Shown here piece after piece: positions 27,508 to 35,784 of a stretch of DNA of 36,941 nucleotides. The position numbers and the translations under genes are program-made. The DNA lies in assembly GCA_002699165.1 (NCBI GenBank), contig PABO01000011.1, positions 1 to 36,941 on the forward strand, read 5' to 3'. The notes under the pieces were generated by a model that saw nothing but the letters and a program-made list of their open reading frames with translations, made no database searches and was not told the DNA's origin. The stretch comes from Chloroflexota bacterium. GTDB taxonomy: Bacteria; Chloroflexota; Dehalococcoidia; Lucifugimonadales; Lucifugimonadaceae. Positions within the stretch are counted from its first letter, which is position 1, and every line of letters starts with the position of its first letter.

Positions 27508-28281
27508 TTATGTATTATTAATCCAAGATAAAGAATCTAATGTGTTTATTAATGGCTTATACTCACATCCAACCCATCCTTTGTATCCAATTTGATCAAA
27601 TACTTCAAAAATTTTAGGATAGTTTATTTCTCCTGTACCGGGTTCGTTTCTTCCTGGATTATCTGCAATTTGAACATGTCCAATTTTATCAATTATGTTT
27701 GATATAGTTCTTATTAGATCCCCTTCCATAATTTGCATGTGATAAACATCATAAAGAAGGAATGCATTACTATGATTTATTTTTTCAATCAATTGAATCC
27801 CCTGCTTTGATGTATTAATAAAAAAACCAGGCTGATCAATAACATTAATCGGCTCTATGAGAGCCATAATATTTTTTTCAAATAATTTTTCAGATGCAAC
27901 TTTTTGATTATCAATTAATGTTTGATAAATTTCTTCATCATCAAATCCTTCAGGTTTTGTACCTACTCCTGTATTAATTCCTAAGCATCCAAGATTTGAA
28001 GCATACCTTAATCCTAAATCCAACCTTTCTAAAAAAAGATCTTTTCTATCAGGTCTTAATGCAATATTCCCTAAATTAGTATCAGGATCAGTAACTGGAA
28101 GATTAATAATTACATGCTTCAAGTTATGTTTATCAAGTTTCTCTTTTATTTGATCAATTTCAAGAGAATAGGGTGCTTGTAATTCAACTCCCTTAAAGCC
28201 AGATTTCGCTGCCTGTTCGTATCTGTCAATAAGTTCAAATTCATTGAACATAAATTGTAAATTTGCTTCTAGTTTAACCAT
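27508..28281 (-). CDS. hyi: Hydroxypyruvate isomerase-like TIM-barrel protein (copy 1)
   Basis: 257 residues. Hyi interconverts hydroxypyruvate and tartronate semialdehyde; related enzymes epimerise or isomerise other small sugars. Catalytic glutamates are at E143 (LIEPINVID) and E240 (GCEYKP), the positions seen in Hyi. The diagnostic LYDVYHMQIMEGDLIRT and IADNPGRNEPGTGEINY stretches are nearly invariant in the family. It lies one base after the second hyi-like gene. Where Hyi has a DFAAGERG-type loop this copy reads TDPDTNLGN, so the substrate may differ. Confidence 0.85.
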   Translation of the reverse strand: MVKLEANLQFMFNEFELIDRYEQAAKSGFKGVELQAPYSLEIDQIKEKLDKHNLKHVIINLPVTDPDTNLGNIALRPDRKDLFLERLDLGLRYASNLGCLGINTGVGTKPEGFDDEEIYQTLIDNQKVASEKLFEKNIMALIEPINVIDQPGFFINTSKQGIQLIEKINHSNAFLLYDVYHMQIMEGDLIRTISNIIDKIGHVQIADNPGRNEPGTGEINYPKIFEVFDQIGYKGWVGCEYKPLINTLDSLSWINNT

Positions 28282-28282
28282 T

Positions 28283-29059
28283 TTATTTTGTTAATTCATT
28301 GATCCAATTAAGACCACTTTCTGTTGAATTCAAAGGACTATACTCGCACCCAATCCATCCGTCATAGTTTTCTGACAAAAATGAAAAAATATTTTTATAG
28401 TTTATCTCACCTGTACCTGGTTCATTTCTGCCAGGATTATCCGCAATCTGAATATGTCCTATTTGAGATTTATTATTTTGAAATGTTCTAATTAAATCTC
28501 CTTCCATTATTTGCATATGGTAAATATCAAATTGTATTTTTACATTATCTTTAGCGGTTGAATCAACTATTTGCTTACAGTGATTAGTATTTGTAACAAA
28601 ATAGTTAGGTGCATCAATTAAATTTAAGGCTTCAACCAAAACATTAATACCTTTATCCATTGTTTGATCTGACGCATAGATAAGATTTTCAATTAATGTG
28701 TCATTTAATTCATTTTTAGTAAATTTTCCGTTATCAATTCCAACAAGAACAGTCAATCTCTTACAGTCCAAAACATCTGCATACTCTATAGCTTGATGCA
28801 CACCTTCTTGAAACTCTGATTTTCTGTCTGGATAGATTGCAATTCCTCTTTCTCCTGCAGCAAAATCTCCTACAGGAAAATCAAATAAAATTTGTTCTAA
28901 ATTATTTTCTAGTAATTCATTTTTTATATCATCCTTTTCATAATCATAAGGAAAAAGATACTCTACTCCCTTAAATCCAAACTCAGAGGCTAGTTTAAAT
29001 CTTTTCATAAAATCTTGCTCGTTATACAACATTGATAAATTTGCTGCTAAATTAATCAT
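28283..29059 (-). CDS. hyi: Hydroxypyruvate isomerase-like TIM-barrel protein (copy 2)
   Basis: 258 residues from the ATG at 29059. AAGGAG (29066-29071, inside the last codons of the amidase gene) lies six bases before it, so the in-frame ATG at 29074 is not preferred. Closer to classical Hyi than its neighbour: ANLSMLYNE, FPYDYE, FPVGDFAAGERGIAIYPDR, FDIYHMQIMEGDLIRT, IADNPGRNEPGTGEINY and GCEYSP. The first catalytic Glu is kept (E143), but in VEALNLID instead of EPIN. One base separates it from each neighbour. Confidence 0.87.
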   Translation of the reverse strand: MINLAANLSMLYNEQDFMKRFKLASEFGFKGVEYLFPYDYEKDDIKNELLENNLEQILFDFPVGDFAAGERGIAIYPDRKSEFQEGVHQAIEYADVLDCKRLTVLVGIDNGKFTKNELNDTLIENLIYASDQTMDKGINVLVEALNLIDAPNYFVTNTNHCKQIVDSTAKDNVKIQFDIYHMQIMEGDLIRTFQNNKSQIGHIQIADNPGRNEPGTGEINYKNIFSFLSENYDGWIGCEYSPLNSTESGLNWINELTK

Positions 29060-29060
29060 A

Positions 29061-30494
29061 TTATTCTCCTTCATTTATTATTTTTGGTTTAATTTTATAA
29101 AAATTAGTTTCTTGTTCAAATATTTTTGCAATTCTTAAGACATTTAGGTCATCCAATTTTTTCCCTACAATTTGTATCCCTGTAGGCAACCCTTTAATGA
29201 ATCCTCCGGGAATACTTATACTTGGACATCCAGTAGCTGTTATAGCATAACATAGACCCATCCAATCGATATATGTTTCAAGTTTAACTCCGTCAATTTC
29301 TTCAACATACTCAATATTTTTATCAAAAGGTAAGACACTTGTCGAAGGAAGAACAAGATAATCATATTTTTCAAAAAATTCAGCTATATTTTGATCAACT
29401 ATTGATCTTTGTGATTCAGCTAAGCTAAGGTCTGTTGCTTTTAATTCAAGCCCTTTTTCAACATTCCAGATCAAAGTTTCTTTCATAAGGTCTCTATTTT
29501 TTACAATGTGCTCTTTATGAGCATTGGCAAATGTGTAAGCCCTATATGTTTGAAAAATATTATCAACATTCTCTAAGTTTGGAAATGATTCTTCCATTTC
29601 GAAACCTAATTTAGAAAAAATTTCTATGGAATTACCGAAAGCTTCTTTTATATCTTTGCTAACAGGATAAATTCCTAAATTATGACTAAAAGCAATTTTA
29701 ATATTTTTGGGATCTGGTAATTTTAAATCTAAAAATCGTTCTGAAGATTCATTAATACTATTGCCTATTCTATTGTCGTATCCTGCCATACAAGATAAAA
29801 GAATAGATAAATCTTCTACATTTCTTGCCATTGGACCATTTACACTCATCATATTATAAGTAATATCTGCAGGTAATTGAGGAATCGTACCAATAGAAGT
29901 TCTAAACCCAACTACATTATTCCAAGCAGCAGGGTTTCTTAAGGATCCTCCCATATCACTGCCTTGGGCGATAGGAACCATTCTCATAGCCAAAGCGACT
30001 CCAGCACCTCCACTCGAACCTCCTGCAGTTTTTGAAAGATCAAAAGGGTTATATGTTGTTTTAAATACATCATTGAATGTATGAGAACCTGCTCCAAATT
30101 CAGGAGTATTACTTTTCCCAAGTATCAAAGCACCTGATTTTTTTATTTTTTTTACAACTAAATCGTCTTCATCAGGTATAAAATCTTTATAAATTCTTGA
30201 CCCCATTGTTGTACGAATACCAGCCGTTTTATTCAAATCTTTTATAAGAATTGGGATTCCTGATAAAGGTTTATTATAATCTTTAGTTTTATCAATTTTT
30301 CTTGCATTATCTAATGCAAAATCAAGAGAAAATGTACATACTGCATTCGTCTTAGAGTCAAATTTATCAATTTGATCTGCATGAATATTAACTAATTCTT
30401 CTGAAGTAATATCACCTGAAAGAAGCATATTCTTCATTTTTTTGACGCTATGATTTAAAATTATCTTTTTTTCCGAATTTGAAAAATTTGTCAT
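29061..30494 (-). CDS. Amidase-signature family hydrolase
   Basis: 477 residues from the ATG at 30494, which overlaps the cysM stop by one base (TAATG); a GTG at 30503 would add three residues. The Ser-cisSer-Lys triad is complete: K85 (GIPILIKD), S160 (GGSSGG) and S184 (SDMGGSLRNPA), with the same spacing as FAAH. The family hydrolyses amides of many kinds. GatA is a relative, but without gatB or gatC nearby and with this length and context a catabolic amidase is more likely. Its position between cysM and two hyi-like genes gives no direct substrate clue. Confidence 0.88.
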   Translation of the reverse strand: MTNFSNSEKKIILNHSVKKMKNMLLSGDITSEELVNIHADQIDKFDSKTNAVCTFSLDFALDNARKIDKTKDYNKPLSGIPILIKDLNKTAGIRTTMGSRIYKDFIPDEDDLVVKKIKKSGALILGKSNTPEFGAGSHTFNDVFKTTYNPFDLSKTAGGSSGGAGVALAMRMVPIAQGSDMGGSLRNPAAWNNVVGFRTSIGTIPQLPADITYNMMSVNGPMARNVEDLSILLSCMAGYDNRIGNSINESSERFLDLKLPDPKNIKIAFSHNLGIYPVSKDIKEAFGNSIEIFSKLGFEMEESFPNLENVDNIFQTYRAYTFANAHKEHIVKNRDLMKETLIWNVEKGLELKATDLSLAESQRSIVDQNIAEFFEKYDYLVLPSTSVLPFDKNIEYVEEIDGVKLETYIDWMGLCYAITATGCPSISIPGGFIKGLPTGIQIVGKKLDDLNVLRIAKIFEQETNFYKIKPKIINEGE

Positions 30495-31453
30495 TACCAC
30501 CACACTTTTCCATCAATATCATTAGCTATTTCAGAAAAATCTTTCTCATAAATCCCACTAGATAAATATTTCCAACCTCCATCTGCAAAAATAGTCACTA
30601 TTATCGAATCTTCAAGTCTTTTAGACATCTTTACACATGTAGCCAAAGTTGCCCCTGATGACACTCCAACAAATAATCCATGAGTTTCCATCACTTTTTT
30701 TGTCCAATAAAATGATTCTTCAGCTTCCACCATTATTCTTCCATCTAATTTATCTAAATCTAAAATTGGAGGAATGTACCCATGCTCTATTGATCTTAAT
30801 CCTTGCACCACATCATCAGGATGAGGCGCAGTTGCAATTATTTTTATTGAGCCATTAAATTCTTTTAATCTTTTCCCTACTCCCATTAATGTTCCTCCGG
30901 TTCCAAGACCTGAAACAAAATGTGTGACATCTGGCATTTGTTTAGTTATTTCTAATCCTGTAGTGTAGTAATGAGCTTTTATACTTGCTTGGTTTCCATA
31001 TTGAAAGGGCATAAAATACTCAGGGTTTTCAGATGAAATTTTTTGAGCAAGCTTAATTGATCCATTAGTTCCTTCTTTTCCTTCAGAAAAAATTATATCT
31101 GCTCCAAATGATTTTAATAAAGATACACGCTCTTGGCTGACTGAATCAGGCATAACTGCAATCATCTTATATCCCTTAATCTTTGCAATCATTGCAAGAC
31201 CAATCCCTGTGTTGCCAGATGTAGGTTCAATTATAGTTTGACCTTTAGTTATTTTGCCTTCCTTCTCAGCATCAAAAATCAAACATTTTGCTACTCTATC
31301 CTTGATAGACCCAGTAGGATTTTCACCTTCTAATTTAGCGTAGATCTTCACCGAAGAATTATGACTCAATGAAGAGAGGTCAACAAGGCTAGTATTACCT
31401 ATATTCTTTAGCTGCCCTTGACTAAAATTATCTATGTTTAATGTTGCTTTCAT
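30494..31453 (-). CDS. cysM: PLP-dependent cysteine synthase, CysM-like
   Basis: 319 residues. The PLP lysine is K51 (NPTGSIKDR), with EPTSGNTGIGLAM (76-88), the phosphate-cradle GLGTGGTLMG, and VSSGAT. The C-terminal DGGWKYLSSGIY resembles actinobacterial CysM, which uses O-phosphoserine and a thiocarboxylated carrier protein; an O-acetylserine-using CysK is the alternative. It lies four bases after a MoeB-type activating enzyme, consistent with carrier-protein sulfur delivery, but no CysO or Mec gene is here. A leader peptide with tandem Cys codons and a terminator precede the pair, which supports a role in cysteine synthesis. Confidence 0.88.
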   Translation of the reverse strand: MKATLNIDNFSQGQLKNIGNTSLVDLSSLSHNSSVKIYAKLEGENPTGSIKDRVAKCLIFDAEKEGKITKGQTIIEPTSGNTGIGLAMIAKIKGYKMIAVMPDSVSQERVSLLKSFGADIIFSEGKEGTNGSIKLAQKISSENPEYFMPFQYGNQASIKAHYYTTGLEITKQMPDVTHFVSGLGTGGTLMGVGKRLKEFNGSIKIIATAPHPDDVVQGLRSIEHGYIPPILDLDKLDGRIMVEAEESFYWTKKVMETHGLFVGVSSGATLATCVKMSKRLEDSIIVTIFADGGWKYLSSGIYEKDFSEIANDIDGKVWW

Positions 31454-31457
31454 AGTT

Positions 31458-32273
31458 TTAGCTAACTACTTTTACACCACAAAATATTTCATAATCTATC
31501 AATTCTGTAACCTCAGGATTATCACCACAGAGCTTACAATTCGGATTTTGTCTTATTTTTATTTCCCTAAATTCCATTCCAAGCGCTTCAATTAGCAACA
31601 TTCTTCCCATAAGAGGTTCGCCTATTTCTAAAATAAGCTTAATAGTCTCTAATGCTTGGATTGACCCAACTAATCCAGGAAGAGCTCCTATTACTCCAGC
31701 TTCAGCACAACTAGGGACTTCTCCAGGTGGAGGTGGATCTGGAAAAATACACCTATAGCACCCATTTCCTGGAATATAAGTTGTAGCCTGACCATCAAAA
31801 ATTAGAATAGCTCCATCAACTAACGGTTTCTTTAATAAAAATGCTGCATCATTAACCAAATATCTTGTGGCAAAATTATCTGCTCCATTTATTACAATGT
31901 CGTAATCCTTCATAATTTCAAAGGCATTAGAAGAATTAATAGGTTCTTCATGAATGGTTACATTGACATCAGGATTATGTGCAAGCAAAGTTTCTTTTGC
32001 AGATTCAACTTTTCTCTTTCCAACATCTGAATCTGTATGCAAGATTTGTCTTTGAAGATTAGATACATCTACTGTATCAAAATCTACAATTCCAATATTC
32101 CCTACTCCAGCCAAAGCTAAATATAATGAAACTGGAGATCCTAAGCCTCCAGCTCCTATAATCAAGACTTTTGAATCTAAAAGAGCTCTTTGACCTCTGC
32201 TACCTACGTTAGGCATTATAAGGTGCCTACTATATCTTTCCACTTGTGATGGATTTAATGGTGTTATTGACAT
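31458..32273 (-). CDS. moeB: MoeB/ThiF-family sulfur-carrier adenylyltransferase
   Basis: 271 residues. It adenylates the C-terminal Gly-Gly of a ubiquitin-like sulfur carrier such as MoaD, ThiS or CysO. ATP-binding GAGGLGSP is at 40-47, the Arg-finger-like NLQRQILH near 72, catalytic Cys189 in SCAEAGVIGALPG, and zinc cysteines CYRC (172, 175) and CKLC (246, 249). There is no C-terminal rhodanese domain, unlike MoeZ/MOCS3. First structural gene of the moeB-cysM-amidase-hyi-hyi-pgpA run; GGAG precedes the ATG. Its leader carries an intrinsic terminator and a Cys leader peptide. Confidence 0.93.
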   Translation of the reverse strand: MSITPLNPSQVERYSRHLIMPNVGSRGQRALLDSKVLIIGAGGLGSPVSLYLALAGVGNIGIVDFDTVDVSNLQRQILHTDSDVGKRKVESAKETLLAHNPDVNVTIHEEPINSSNAFEIMKDYDIVINGADNFATRYLVNDAAFLLKKPLVDGAILIFDGQATTYIPGNGCYRCIFPDPPPPGEVPSCAEAGVIGALPGLVGSIQALETIKLILEIGEPLMGRMLLIEALGMEFREIKIRQNPNCKLCGDNPEVTELIDYEIFCGVKVVS

Positions 32274-32294
32274 TTATTTCTCCAAAATTTTATT

Positions 32295-32321
32295 AAAAAA
32301 AAACCCCCTAATTTGGGGGTT
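32295..32321 (-). terminator. Rho-independent terminator in the moeB leader
   Basis: On the minus strand, AACCCCC pairs with GGGGGTT (32302-32321; seven pairs, six-base loop) and is followed by a run of nine Ts (32295-32303, partly inside the stem). It is the most stable hairpin in the window and stands 29 bases upstream of the moeB start codon, so it must be read through for moeB-cysM expression. Confidence 0.88.
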
Positions 32322-32374
32322 CGAACAATTATTAAACTATATTATCAATAGCTCGAACGCTTACTATTGCAACA
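32319..32374 (-). promoter_or_regulatory. Cysteine-responsive attenuator hairpins upstream of moeB-cysM
   Basis: After the tandem Cys codons (32369-32374) the minus-strand RNA has CAATAG (32364-32369), able to pair with CTATTG (32346-32351): region 1:2. GTTCGAGC (32351-32358, overlapping region 2) can instead pair over eight positions, one G-U, with GTTCGAAC (32319-32326), whose last three bases are the 5' end of the terminator stem. Stalling at Cys would block 1:2 and free this antiterminator. The overlap with the terminator is only three bases, so how fully it disrupts termination is uncertain. Confidence 0.6.
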
Positions 32375-32404
32375 GTTTATTAAAATTGTATTTGAATAAC
32401 TCAT
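32345..32404 (-). CDS. Cys-Cys leader peptide of the moeB-cysM operon
   Basis: A 19-codon ORF reads MSYSNTILINCCNSKRSSY and stops at TGA (32345-32347). Adjacent Cys codons TGT-TGC are at 32369-32374, and five residues are Ser. TATAAT (32411-32416) lies exactly six bases before the ATG, so the ORF is probably leaderless. It is followed by competing hairpins and a terminator before a cysteine synthase operon. Leaderless Cys-rich leader ORFs acting as attenuators are known in mycobacteria; this looks like an independent or ancient counterpart (inference). Confidence 0.75.
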   Translation of the reverse strand: MSYSNTILINCCNSKRSSY

Positions 32405-32410
32405 AGGATC

Positions 32411-32416
32411 ATTATA
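32411..32416 (-). promoter_or_regulatory. Consensus -10 (TATAAT) of the leaderless Cys leader transcript
   Basis: A perfect TATAAT on the minus strand, six bases before the leader peptide ATG at 32404. The -35 region is A+T-rich without a good TTGACA match, so an activator may be needed or UP-like A+T DNA may suffice. Confidence 0.6.
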
Positions 32417-32437
32417 TATAAAAAAGATAAAATTTAT

Positions 32438-32455
32438 ATTGATTAAATTATCAAT
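32438..32455. promoter_or_regulatory. Inverted repeat between the Cys leader promoter and the SDR gene
   Basis: ATTGAT (32438-32443) and ATCAAT (32450-32455) form a dyad across six bases. It covers the -35 position of the minus-strand Cys leader promoter and lies 46 bases before the plus-strand SDR start, so a bound protein could affect either. In such A+T-rich DNA a six-base dyad may be chance. Confidence 0.3.
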
Positions 32456-32501
32456 AAATATAAAAATACAATCATATATTTTATATTCAAGGAGAAAGAA
32501 T

Positions 32502-33347
32502 ATGCCGTCTGGACAAAGACTCGAAGGTAAAGTAGCAATAGTTACTGGTGCTGGTACAAGAGGTGAAATTGCAGGTACGGGACAAGCTGCGGCTATTTTA
32601 ATGGCAAGGGAAGGGGCCAAGATTTTACTTTGTGATATCGATGTAGAAAGAGCTGAAGAAACCTTAGATGTGATTGAAAAAGAAGGCGGAATTGGAAAGA
32701 TTTTTATTGGAGATGTAACATCTGAAAAAGATTGTGAAGATATGATCAACGAATCAGTTAAACAATTCGGGAAACTAGATATTTTATTTAATAATGTAGG
32801 CGGCCCCGGTGGTGGAATGGTCACAGAAATCGAAGAAGAAGATTGGCATAGATCAATAGATCTAAATATGAAAAGTGCAGTTATGGGTTCAAAATATGCA
32901 ATCCCTGCAATGGAAAAATCTGGGGGAGGTTCCATAATAAATGTCTCTTCAATTGATGGTACTCAAGCAGGTTCAACAAGGAATGTTCCTTATTCAATTT
33001 CTAAGGCAGCTATCTCTCATCTTTCTAGAATTATGGCTGTTCATCACGGCAGACAAAATATTAGAGTTAATTGTGTAGCGCCAGGGCATGTTTATGGAGC
33101 TTTTCCAAATAGATTCAAAAAAATGGATGACGAATGGAGAGACTTAAGAAGAAAAGCAGGACCTTTAGGTACAGAAGGAACTGCATGGGATGTTGGATGG
33201 GCTGTAGTATATCTAGCTAGCGATGAAGCAAAATGGATAACAGGTGTTGTTCTACCTGTTGATGCTGGGGTTCAAGCTGCATCACCATTATCAATGTGGG
33301 ATGATCTAAATGACGAAGGTGGACCTAAAACAAGTATTGAATATTAA
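32502..33347 (+). CDS. Short-chain dehydrogenase/reductase (SDR)
   Basis: 281 residues from the ATG at 32502; AAGGAG (32489-32494) lies seven bases upstream, so an in-frame TTG at 32439 is not the start. Cofactor motif VTGAGTRGEIAGTG carries an insertion compared with the usual TGxxxGIG. NNVGG, catalytic Ser149/150, Tyr164 and Lys168 (YSISK) are present. The Asp at the end of strand 2 (LLCDID) suggests NAD+ preference. The substrate is unknown. The gene is convergent with the lactonase-like gene (four-base overlap), which with the second SDR may make a sugar oxidation cluster. Confidence 0.87.
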   Translation: MPSGQRLEGKVAIVTGAGTRGEIAGTGQAAAILMAREGAKILLCDIDVERAEETLDVIEKEGGIGKIFIGDVTSEKDCEDMINESVKQFGKLDILFNNVGGPGGGMVTEIEEEDWHRSIDLNMKSAVMGSKYAIPAMEKSGGGSIINVSSIDGTQAGSTRNVPYSISKAAISHLSRIMAVHHGRQNIRVNCVAPGHVYGAFPNRFKKMDDEWRDLRRKAGPLGTEGTAWDVGWAVVYLASDEAKWITGVVLPVDAGVQAASPLSMWDDLNDEGGPKTSIEY

Positions 33348-35346: not shown

Positions 35347-35784
35347 TTAGATAAAGGAAACATATTTTTTATTCAAATTTGATTGCCTACTAGCTAAATC
35401 TTTAATTGAAATTTTACTCAAATGATTTATTAGTACCTCTTCTACCCCTATCCATAATTCTCTTTGGCTGCAAGCATCTGAATGGATACAAACATCTTCA
35501 TTGTGGATACATTCAATTGGGGATAAGGTATAGTCTAAAAGCTTAATGATATCTGATACAAATAAAGATTTTGGATCACCTTTTAGTTTATGCCCGCCTG
35601 AAGGACCTCTATTAGATTCTATGATATCTGCTTTTTGCAATTCATTAGAAATTCTTTGAAGAAATTTCAATGGAACTCCTTGGTCTTTTGAGACTTCATC
35701 TGTCTTAATAAGTCCTTTATCATTATTAACTGAAAGGTATACTAAAAATCTTAGAGCATAGTCTATTTTCATCGGTATTAACAT
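35347..35784 (-). CDS. Rrf2-family transcription regulator
   Basis: 145 residues. An N-terminal winged helix-turn-helix (KIDYALRFLVYL, GVPLKFLQRISNELQKADIIES, NRGPSGGHKL) is followed by three cysteines, C92, C99 and C105, almost at the IscR cluster positions (92, 98, 104), so a [2Fe-2S] or redox sensor is likely. ATG at 35784 is used; an in-frame ATG four codons later is possible. An extended -10 ends six bases before the start, giving a leaderless mRNA. It could control the deoxysugar genes just downstream or Fe-S and sulfur genes; the sequence does not say which. Confidence 0.88.
   Translation of the reverse strand: MLIPMKIDYALRFLVYLSVNNDKGLIKTDEVSKDQGVPLKFLQRISNELQKADIIESNRGPSGGHKLKGDPKSLFVSDIIKLLDYTLSPIECIHNEDVCIHSDACSQRELWIGVEEVLINHLSKISIKDLASRQSNLNKKYVSFI

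Follow-up and report, generated by a model that had tools for sequence, protein, structure and literature searches.

Attenuators of the trp, his and leu type are built from a leader peptide with regulatory codons, the hairpins 1:2, 2:3 and 3:4, and a terminator in front of a biosynthetic operon. In the Firmicutes, cysteine genes are under RNA control by T-box leaders, which act via tRNA charging. In a terminator survey of 2010, leader-peptide systems were described as known only in Proteobacteria and Actinobacteria, with Firmicutes added (PMC2965389). For the Actinobacteria (Mycobacterium, Propionibacterium acnes and Bifidobacterium longum), leader peptides with runs of Cys near the stop codon were predicted upstream of cys and cbs genes, and no terminators were found (PMC1262725). 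The leaderless Cys ORFs of mycobacteria were detected by ribosome profiling (Shell et al. 2015, PMC4633059), were reported, according to the article that cites the work, to be cysteine-responsive attenuators (Canestrari et al. 2020, cited in PMC9094748), and have been described as translational attenuators (PMC13236596).

The leader analysed here lies in a 36,941-nucleotide stretch of DNA (the window) from a SAR202-type Chloroflexota (Dehalococcoidia) MAG. Like the mycobacterial polycysteine ORFs, it is built on a short ORF, here predicted to be leaderless, that precedes sulfur or cysteine genes and carries a Cys run close to its end, and the response to cysteine, proposed or shown in mycobacteria, is proposed for it. 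The mycobacterial ORFs are described as translational and have no conserved terminator, whereas the window leader has a terminator and an antiterminator and belongs to another phylum; the candidate Cys leaders of the Actinobacteria likewise differ in phylum and in the lack of detected terminators. Compared with the trp, his and leu type, the window leader would sense cysteine, would be leaderless or nearly so, has no Shine-Dalgarno sequence, and has an antiterminator that, in the window's genus, only trims the terminator. Unlike a T-box leader, it has no T-box match and its sensor would be the translating ribosome. Taken as an attenuator, the window system is trp-type attenuation in a new form, paralleled by the leaderless Cys ORFs of mycobacteria. 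Nothing relevant on leader-peptide attenuators of Chloroflexota was found in the open-licence literature, where absence is not proof, nor was the combination of cysteine sensing with a terminator found in the open-licence literature searched.

Architecture of the leader

The leader and the genes that follow it lie on the minus strand, with the following features.

32411..32416, minus strand: -10 box TATAAT, separated from the ATG by six bases; the predicted transcript start is the ATG
32345..32404, minus strand: leader ORF MSYSNTILINCCNSKRSSY, 19 codons, ATG at 32404, stop TGA at 32347-32345, without Shine-Dalgarno sequence
32369..32374, minus strand: adjacent Cys codons TGT TGC (candidate regulatory codons), TGTTG being invariant in 8/8 genus loci
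32346..32369, minus strand: hairpin 1:2, CAATAG (32369-32364) with CTATTG (32351-32346), found in the window and in contig L032
32351..32358, minus strand: element 2, GTTCGAGC, 10-11 nt past the last Cys codon; a ribosome positioned on the stop codon would cover it
32319..32326, minus strand: element 3, GTTCGAAC, partner of element 2 and base of the 5' arm of the terminator
32301..32322, minus strand: stem (3:4) of the intrinsic terminator, GAACCCCC-N6-GGGGGTTT, followed by a T run that ends at 32295; all eight genus loci have this terminator
31458..32273, minus strand: moeB/ThiF-type adenylyltransferase, first gene of the putatively regulated operon, Shine-Dalgarno GGAG at 32280-32283
30494..31453, minus strand: cysM, cysteine synthase, whose best solved relative is M. 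tuberculosis CysM
29061..30503, minus strand: amidase, overlapping the end of cysM; possibly a further member of the operon

An earlier note on this DNA had described a TATAAT six bases before a 19-codon ORF with adjacent Cys codons, and this arrangement was confirmed on the minus strand. The 1:2 hairpin (CAAUAG:CUAUUG) and the alternative 8-pair helix GUUCGAGC:GUUCGAAC that it named were both found in the window leader. The terminator, with a run of nine T at 32303-32295, had been called the strongest intrinsic terminator of the window, which agreed with our results, as no second terminator-like site there had both an uninterrupted T run and a stem comparably rich in G-C pairs. Its distance to moeB had to be corrected from 29 bases to 27 nt, counted from the end of the stem to the ATG. 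Both the GGAG at 32283-32280 and the moeB ATG at 32273 follow the T run. Folding of the window leader gave a structure more stable than those of shuffled sequences (z -2.9). The search of Rfam 15 at the gathering score returned only a tRNA elsewhere in the window and nothing in 16 related loci; a T-box or other riboswitch or leader family of Rfam was ruled out, since the leader itself had no match.

The cysM of the window was the sole convincing cysK/cysM match in the 1.38-Mb assembly, which is about 88% complete, and the other four matches were far weaker. A CysO-like thiocarboxylate route would be possible, as three ThiS/MoaD-type carrier genes lie elsewhere. Downstream of the amidase, two adjoining genes of the hydroxypyruvate/2-oxo-tetronate isomerase type occupy 27508-29074.

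Proposed mechanism

From the anatomy of the leader and the conservation, spacing and covariation described below, we infer leaderless initiation, stalling, termination and a response to cysteine. The preferred reading, to which we assign a probability of about 0.87, is that a trp-type transcription attenuator stands before moeB-cysM, in which the ribosome mediates a response to cysteine. Transcripts would begin on the ATG or very close to it, and ribosomes would load on their leaderless or nearly leaderless 5' ends. With ample Cys-tRNA, the ribosome would reach the stop codon and its footprint would mask element 2 (32358-32351), leaving element 3 free for the terminator 3:4, so that transcription would stop near 32295. 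With scarce Cys-tRNA, the ribosome would halt at the Cys codons, its front edge a little short of element 2; elements 2 and 3 would then pair, the base of the terminator would be removed, and the polymerase would read into moeB-cysM.

Conservation within the genus

The genus set consisted of eight loci: the gene was present in seven of the nine genus genomes, and one further locus came from contig L032 (DFQF01000080.1). This contig, assigned in its record to Nitrospinaceae UBA3496, has a moeB-cysM leader of the SAR202 type, and its MoeB is 94% identical to that of the window; it is probably misbinned. An ORF with adjacent Cys codons was present in all eight loci, with peptides MSYSNTILINCCNSKRSSY, MKYLNTILVSCCNS, MKIICKNLTMCCLRVSSDS, MNIXNLKLNICCCRRSVEL, MNIMYLKVNTCCCRRSIEL, MNILSINLNLCCWRAIEL and MNNNKKSFICCRT (the last found twice), and a wobble change between TGT and TGC was seen. 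The blocks conserved in the alignment were the start codon, TGTTG, element 2, element 3, CCCC, the T run and GGAG, while the remaining ORF sequence drifted and the mean column identity was 70%. Element 2 (TTCGA/TCGAAC, or TTCGAGC in its fuller form) and its partner in element 3 (GTTCGA) occurred in 8/8 loci. The pair cells of helix 2:3 were kept in 92%, with UA, GC or GU as the outermost pair; taken by itself, this covariation is modest.

The spacing was kept more closely than the length of the ORF. The distance from the ATG to the Cys codons was 30 or 27 nt, a multiple of three, and that from the last Cys codon to element 2 was 10-11 nt in 8/8 loci, a result independent of the hand-picked start codons used elsewhere. 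The leader varied from 13 to 19 codons, and the first base of the stop codon lay either 8-10 nt downstream or 4-5 nt upstream of the first base of element 2. The front edge of a ribosome lies about 9 nt beyond its codon according to the textbook value. With the stop codon within reach and the front edge about 9 nt further, a ribosome waiting at the stop would mask all or most of element 2 at every one of the eight loci. When the same 9 nt past the A-site codon was assumed throughout, the geometry in which stalling frees element 2 and termination masks it fitted 8/8 loci in the window's genus, 8/9 in sister genus g5 and 14/14 in the distant family f41.

The earlier note had asked whether related loci keep the Cys codons, the position of the stop and both hairpins while other codons drift. 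The Cys codons, helix 2:3 and the terminator were indeed kept in 8/8 loci. The stop codon was not fixed in position, yet it stayed near element 2. Among the eight loci, the 1:2 hairpin was recorded as one helix in the window and L032.

At each of the eight loci the next gene upstream was a divergent SDR gene, and cysM came after moeB. In a region between divergent genes the terminator cannot belong to a preceding gene; that reading was rejected, and the terminator can serve only moeB-cysM.

The promoters of these loci agreed with initiation at or near the start codon. TATAAT was found 6 nt before the ATG in five of the eight loci and 7 nt before it in one, TAGTAT stood at 9 nt in the other two, and no -35 box was recognisable in the genus loci. 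Across the families, -10 boxes lay 4-12 nt before the start codon in 32 of 43 leaders against a background of 12%, a count that is somewhat favourable because the leaders were hand-picked from the Cys leaders and the start codons of families f34, f37 and f28 were picked with the promoter in view. These boxes support the leaderless start that had been claimed for the window, and suggest that most leader ORFs begin within a few nucleotides of the predicted transcript start.

Overlap of terminator and antiterminator

In the window's genus, the overlap between helix 2:3 and the terminator base amounted to no more than 2-4 nt. Folding gave -13.8 kcal/mol for the terminator of the window, -11.7 with 6 nt of element 3 taken and -7.5 with 8 nt taken, and the stalled-state fold of the window leader still held a shortened terminator. 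In G003 (locus L002) the predicted loss was small, almost none. Because the overlap is only 2-4 nt, the two hairpins would not be strictly exclusive at equilibrium in this genus, and the folds support a weakened terminator better than an abolished one. The weakened hairpin would allow read-through. The overlap was clear in g5, where it was accompanied by covariation, and was also present in f41.

Such trimming is a point in favour of translational attenuation, in which a ribosome stalled on the Cys codons would rearrange the leader and make the moeB start more or less accessible, the terminator playing a lesser part. The leaderless Cys ORFs of mycobacteria are described in these terms (PMC13236596) and lack terminators (PMC1262725). 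However, the Shine-Dalgarno GGAG of moeB (32283-32280) lies after the T run and outside the switching hairpins, and the single fold of the full leader placed it beside a weak A-U hairpin made by the T run. The terminator was moreover kept in 8/8 genus loci and in g5, and a purely translational switch needs none. This alternative to transcription attenuation is accordingly improbable, though it is the best of those considered.

Leaders in related families

Like designs were found upstream of the same gene in the sister genus g5 and in other families of the order. The leaders of g5 (MFIEAKNKFFCMCC..., MNFAKLCCINCCIL and MIFDLIQDCCCCQ...) had different sequences and a plan in common with the window's genus, and the last Cys codon was 10-15 nt from element 2 in 8/9. 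Element 2 was GGGCAUU or GGGUAUU, element 3 was AAUGCCC or AGUACCC, and the terminator was GCCCCG...CGGGGC in most members. Pairing in helix 2:3 reached 98%, and at two of its pairs both bases had changed; one of these changes depends on G046, a row aligned one base out of register. Its score was matched by 4-22 of 500 shuffles according to the measure used (4 on most), and the covariation of the terminator helix alone was not above shuffles. The base common to both hairpins covaried as C-G-C, U-G-U or U-A-U in elements 2, 3 and 4; the joint change at this shared position fits, since alternative pairing predicts joint changes. The rrf2 gene ended just upstream of the g5 leader, and most of the loci L023 and L140-L146 had no more than about 4 nt between its stop codon and the leader ATG. 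Because the ATG overlaps or nearly touches this stop, translation of the leader is probably coupled to rrf2 in place of a leaderless start. The g5 relative L025 had a leader with seven Cys (MNIYCLCKNNNFCLPCTRCRLSCL), a Shine-Dalgarno-like GGAG and a terminator, and, unlike in other g5 members, the element 2 pattern was not recognisable in it.

In f41, the leaders were short ORFs with TGY...TGT, for example MLPAPIALVDCACPRT or MITVQFQLNCACTCPPT, behind promoters like TTGACA-N17/18-TAGACT that stood 9-11 nt before the ATG in most cases; in L206 the scripted in-frame start lay nearer the promoter, and this promoter spacing depends there on the choice of start. All 14 of 14 leaders had 11 nt between the last Cys codon and the G run of element 2. 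The predicted folds contained a 1:2 hairpin holding the Cys codon, and helix 2:3 formed before the terminator arm was complete; the third hairpin was the terminator GCCUGCGC...GCGCAGG-U, and the three were in competition. For most f41 leaders the full-length stalled-state fold still favoured the terminator, and therefore kinetics would matter in f41 too.

The order was surveyed with one locus per genus in 74 genera, the expectation being taken from dinucleotide shuffles. Short ORFs with Cys doublets (C or CxC) were found upstream of thiF in 22 of the 74 genera against 5.5 expected (z 7.5, which overstates independence because ten of the 22 Cys-leader genera belong to f41). Among the 20 amino acids, Cys was the only one clearly enriched at this place, the next best having z 2.3. 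Beyond the order, 39 genomes of the class yielded no Cys leader at this gene; the positive controls passed, and in these genomes the gene may stand elsewhere in its operon. Two other loci are recorded here. In L164, a TAAAAT-N6-ATG leader with one Cys (MKRFKDDLFHLCNSSN) and a long terminator hairpin lay in the 250 bases that precede the RYSRH motif of thiF; in L026, a strong terminator (CACCCCGC...GCGGGGTG) preceded thiF, with rrf2 upstream and no Cys leader detected. Overall, the comparison of relatives (8/8 genus loci, g5 and other families) gives good support to the cysteine-responsive attenuator of moeB-cysM put forward in the earlier note.

The Rrf2-family gene of the window (35347-35784), weakly similar to CymR and IscR, is parted from moeB by rhaM, two SDR genes and an amidohydrolase. 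It could be imagined that the leader is constitutive or under the control of a protein, with a regulator such as this Rrf2 bound to the terminator or to the TTCGA repeats and the Cys codons incidental. Rrf2 proteins include regulators of cysteine such as CymR, and most other genera of family f1 had no Cys leader and carried rrf2 directly upstream of thiF, the gene being 3 kb off in the window. However, g5 and f41 had no TTCGA, and other complementary sequences stood there at the same distance from the Cys codons. Neither the Cys-specific enrichment nor the conservation of the codon frame would be expected from an operator, which makes protein control less probable still than the translational switch.

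The leader ORF forms the end of an open frame of 196 codons (32345-32935) that runs antisense to the SDR gene, and a gene caller may wrongly annotate this frame. The pattern of TATAAT-N6-ATG followed by TGYTGY within 9-39 nt occurred at four sites in the 1.38-Mb assembly, and the Cys codons were in frame, as judged by eye, at one of them, the window leader. An accidental ORF of AT-rich DNA that shares the reading frame of this long antisense stretch would account for an open frame upstream and for a TATAAT-like string, which is common in such a genome, but conservation in relatives is the decisive test against chance, and with the start, Cys codons and spacing kept in 8/8 loci against drift elsewhere, the order-wide enrichment of Cys and the single in-frame case in the assembly, it was ruled out as the least credible explanation.

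Discussion

On the attenuator reading, the ribosome-to-hairpin spacing has persisted despite nearly complete turnover of the sequence. The chances are about even that several families of one Chloroflexota order sense cysteine by terminator-based attenuation from leaderless or nearly leaderless ORFs, where ribosomes that load on the free 5' end while it emerges from RNA polymerase may do the work of the classical pause hairpin and Shine-Dalgarno sequence, with coupling to rrf2 serving instead in g5. If true, the moeB-cysM leader would be the first cysteine-specific attenuator of the terminator type and the first leader-peptide attenuator described in Chloroflexota. Leader-peptide attenuation would thus be extended to this phylum, with cysteine coupled to a terminator, and leaderless ORFs with Cys codons would have a second case beside that of mycobacteria. 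SAR202 bacteria, which are common deep-sea organisms, are difficult to study, and the host is uncultured; for its assembly's only convincing cysteine synthase, a specific and testable circuit could be proposed from sequence alone.
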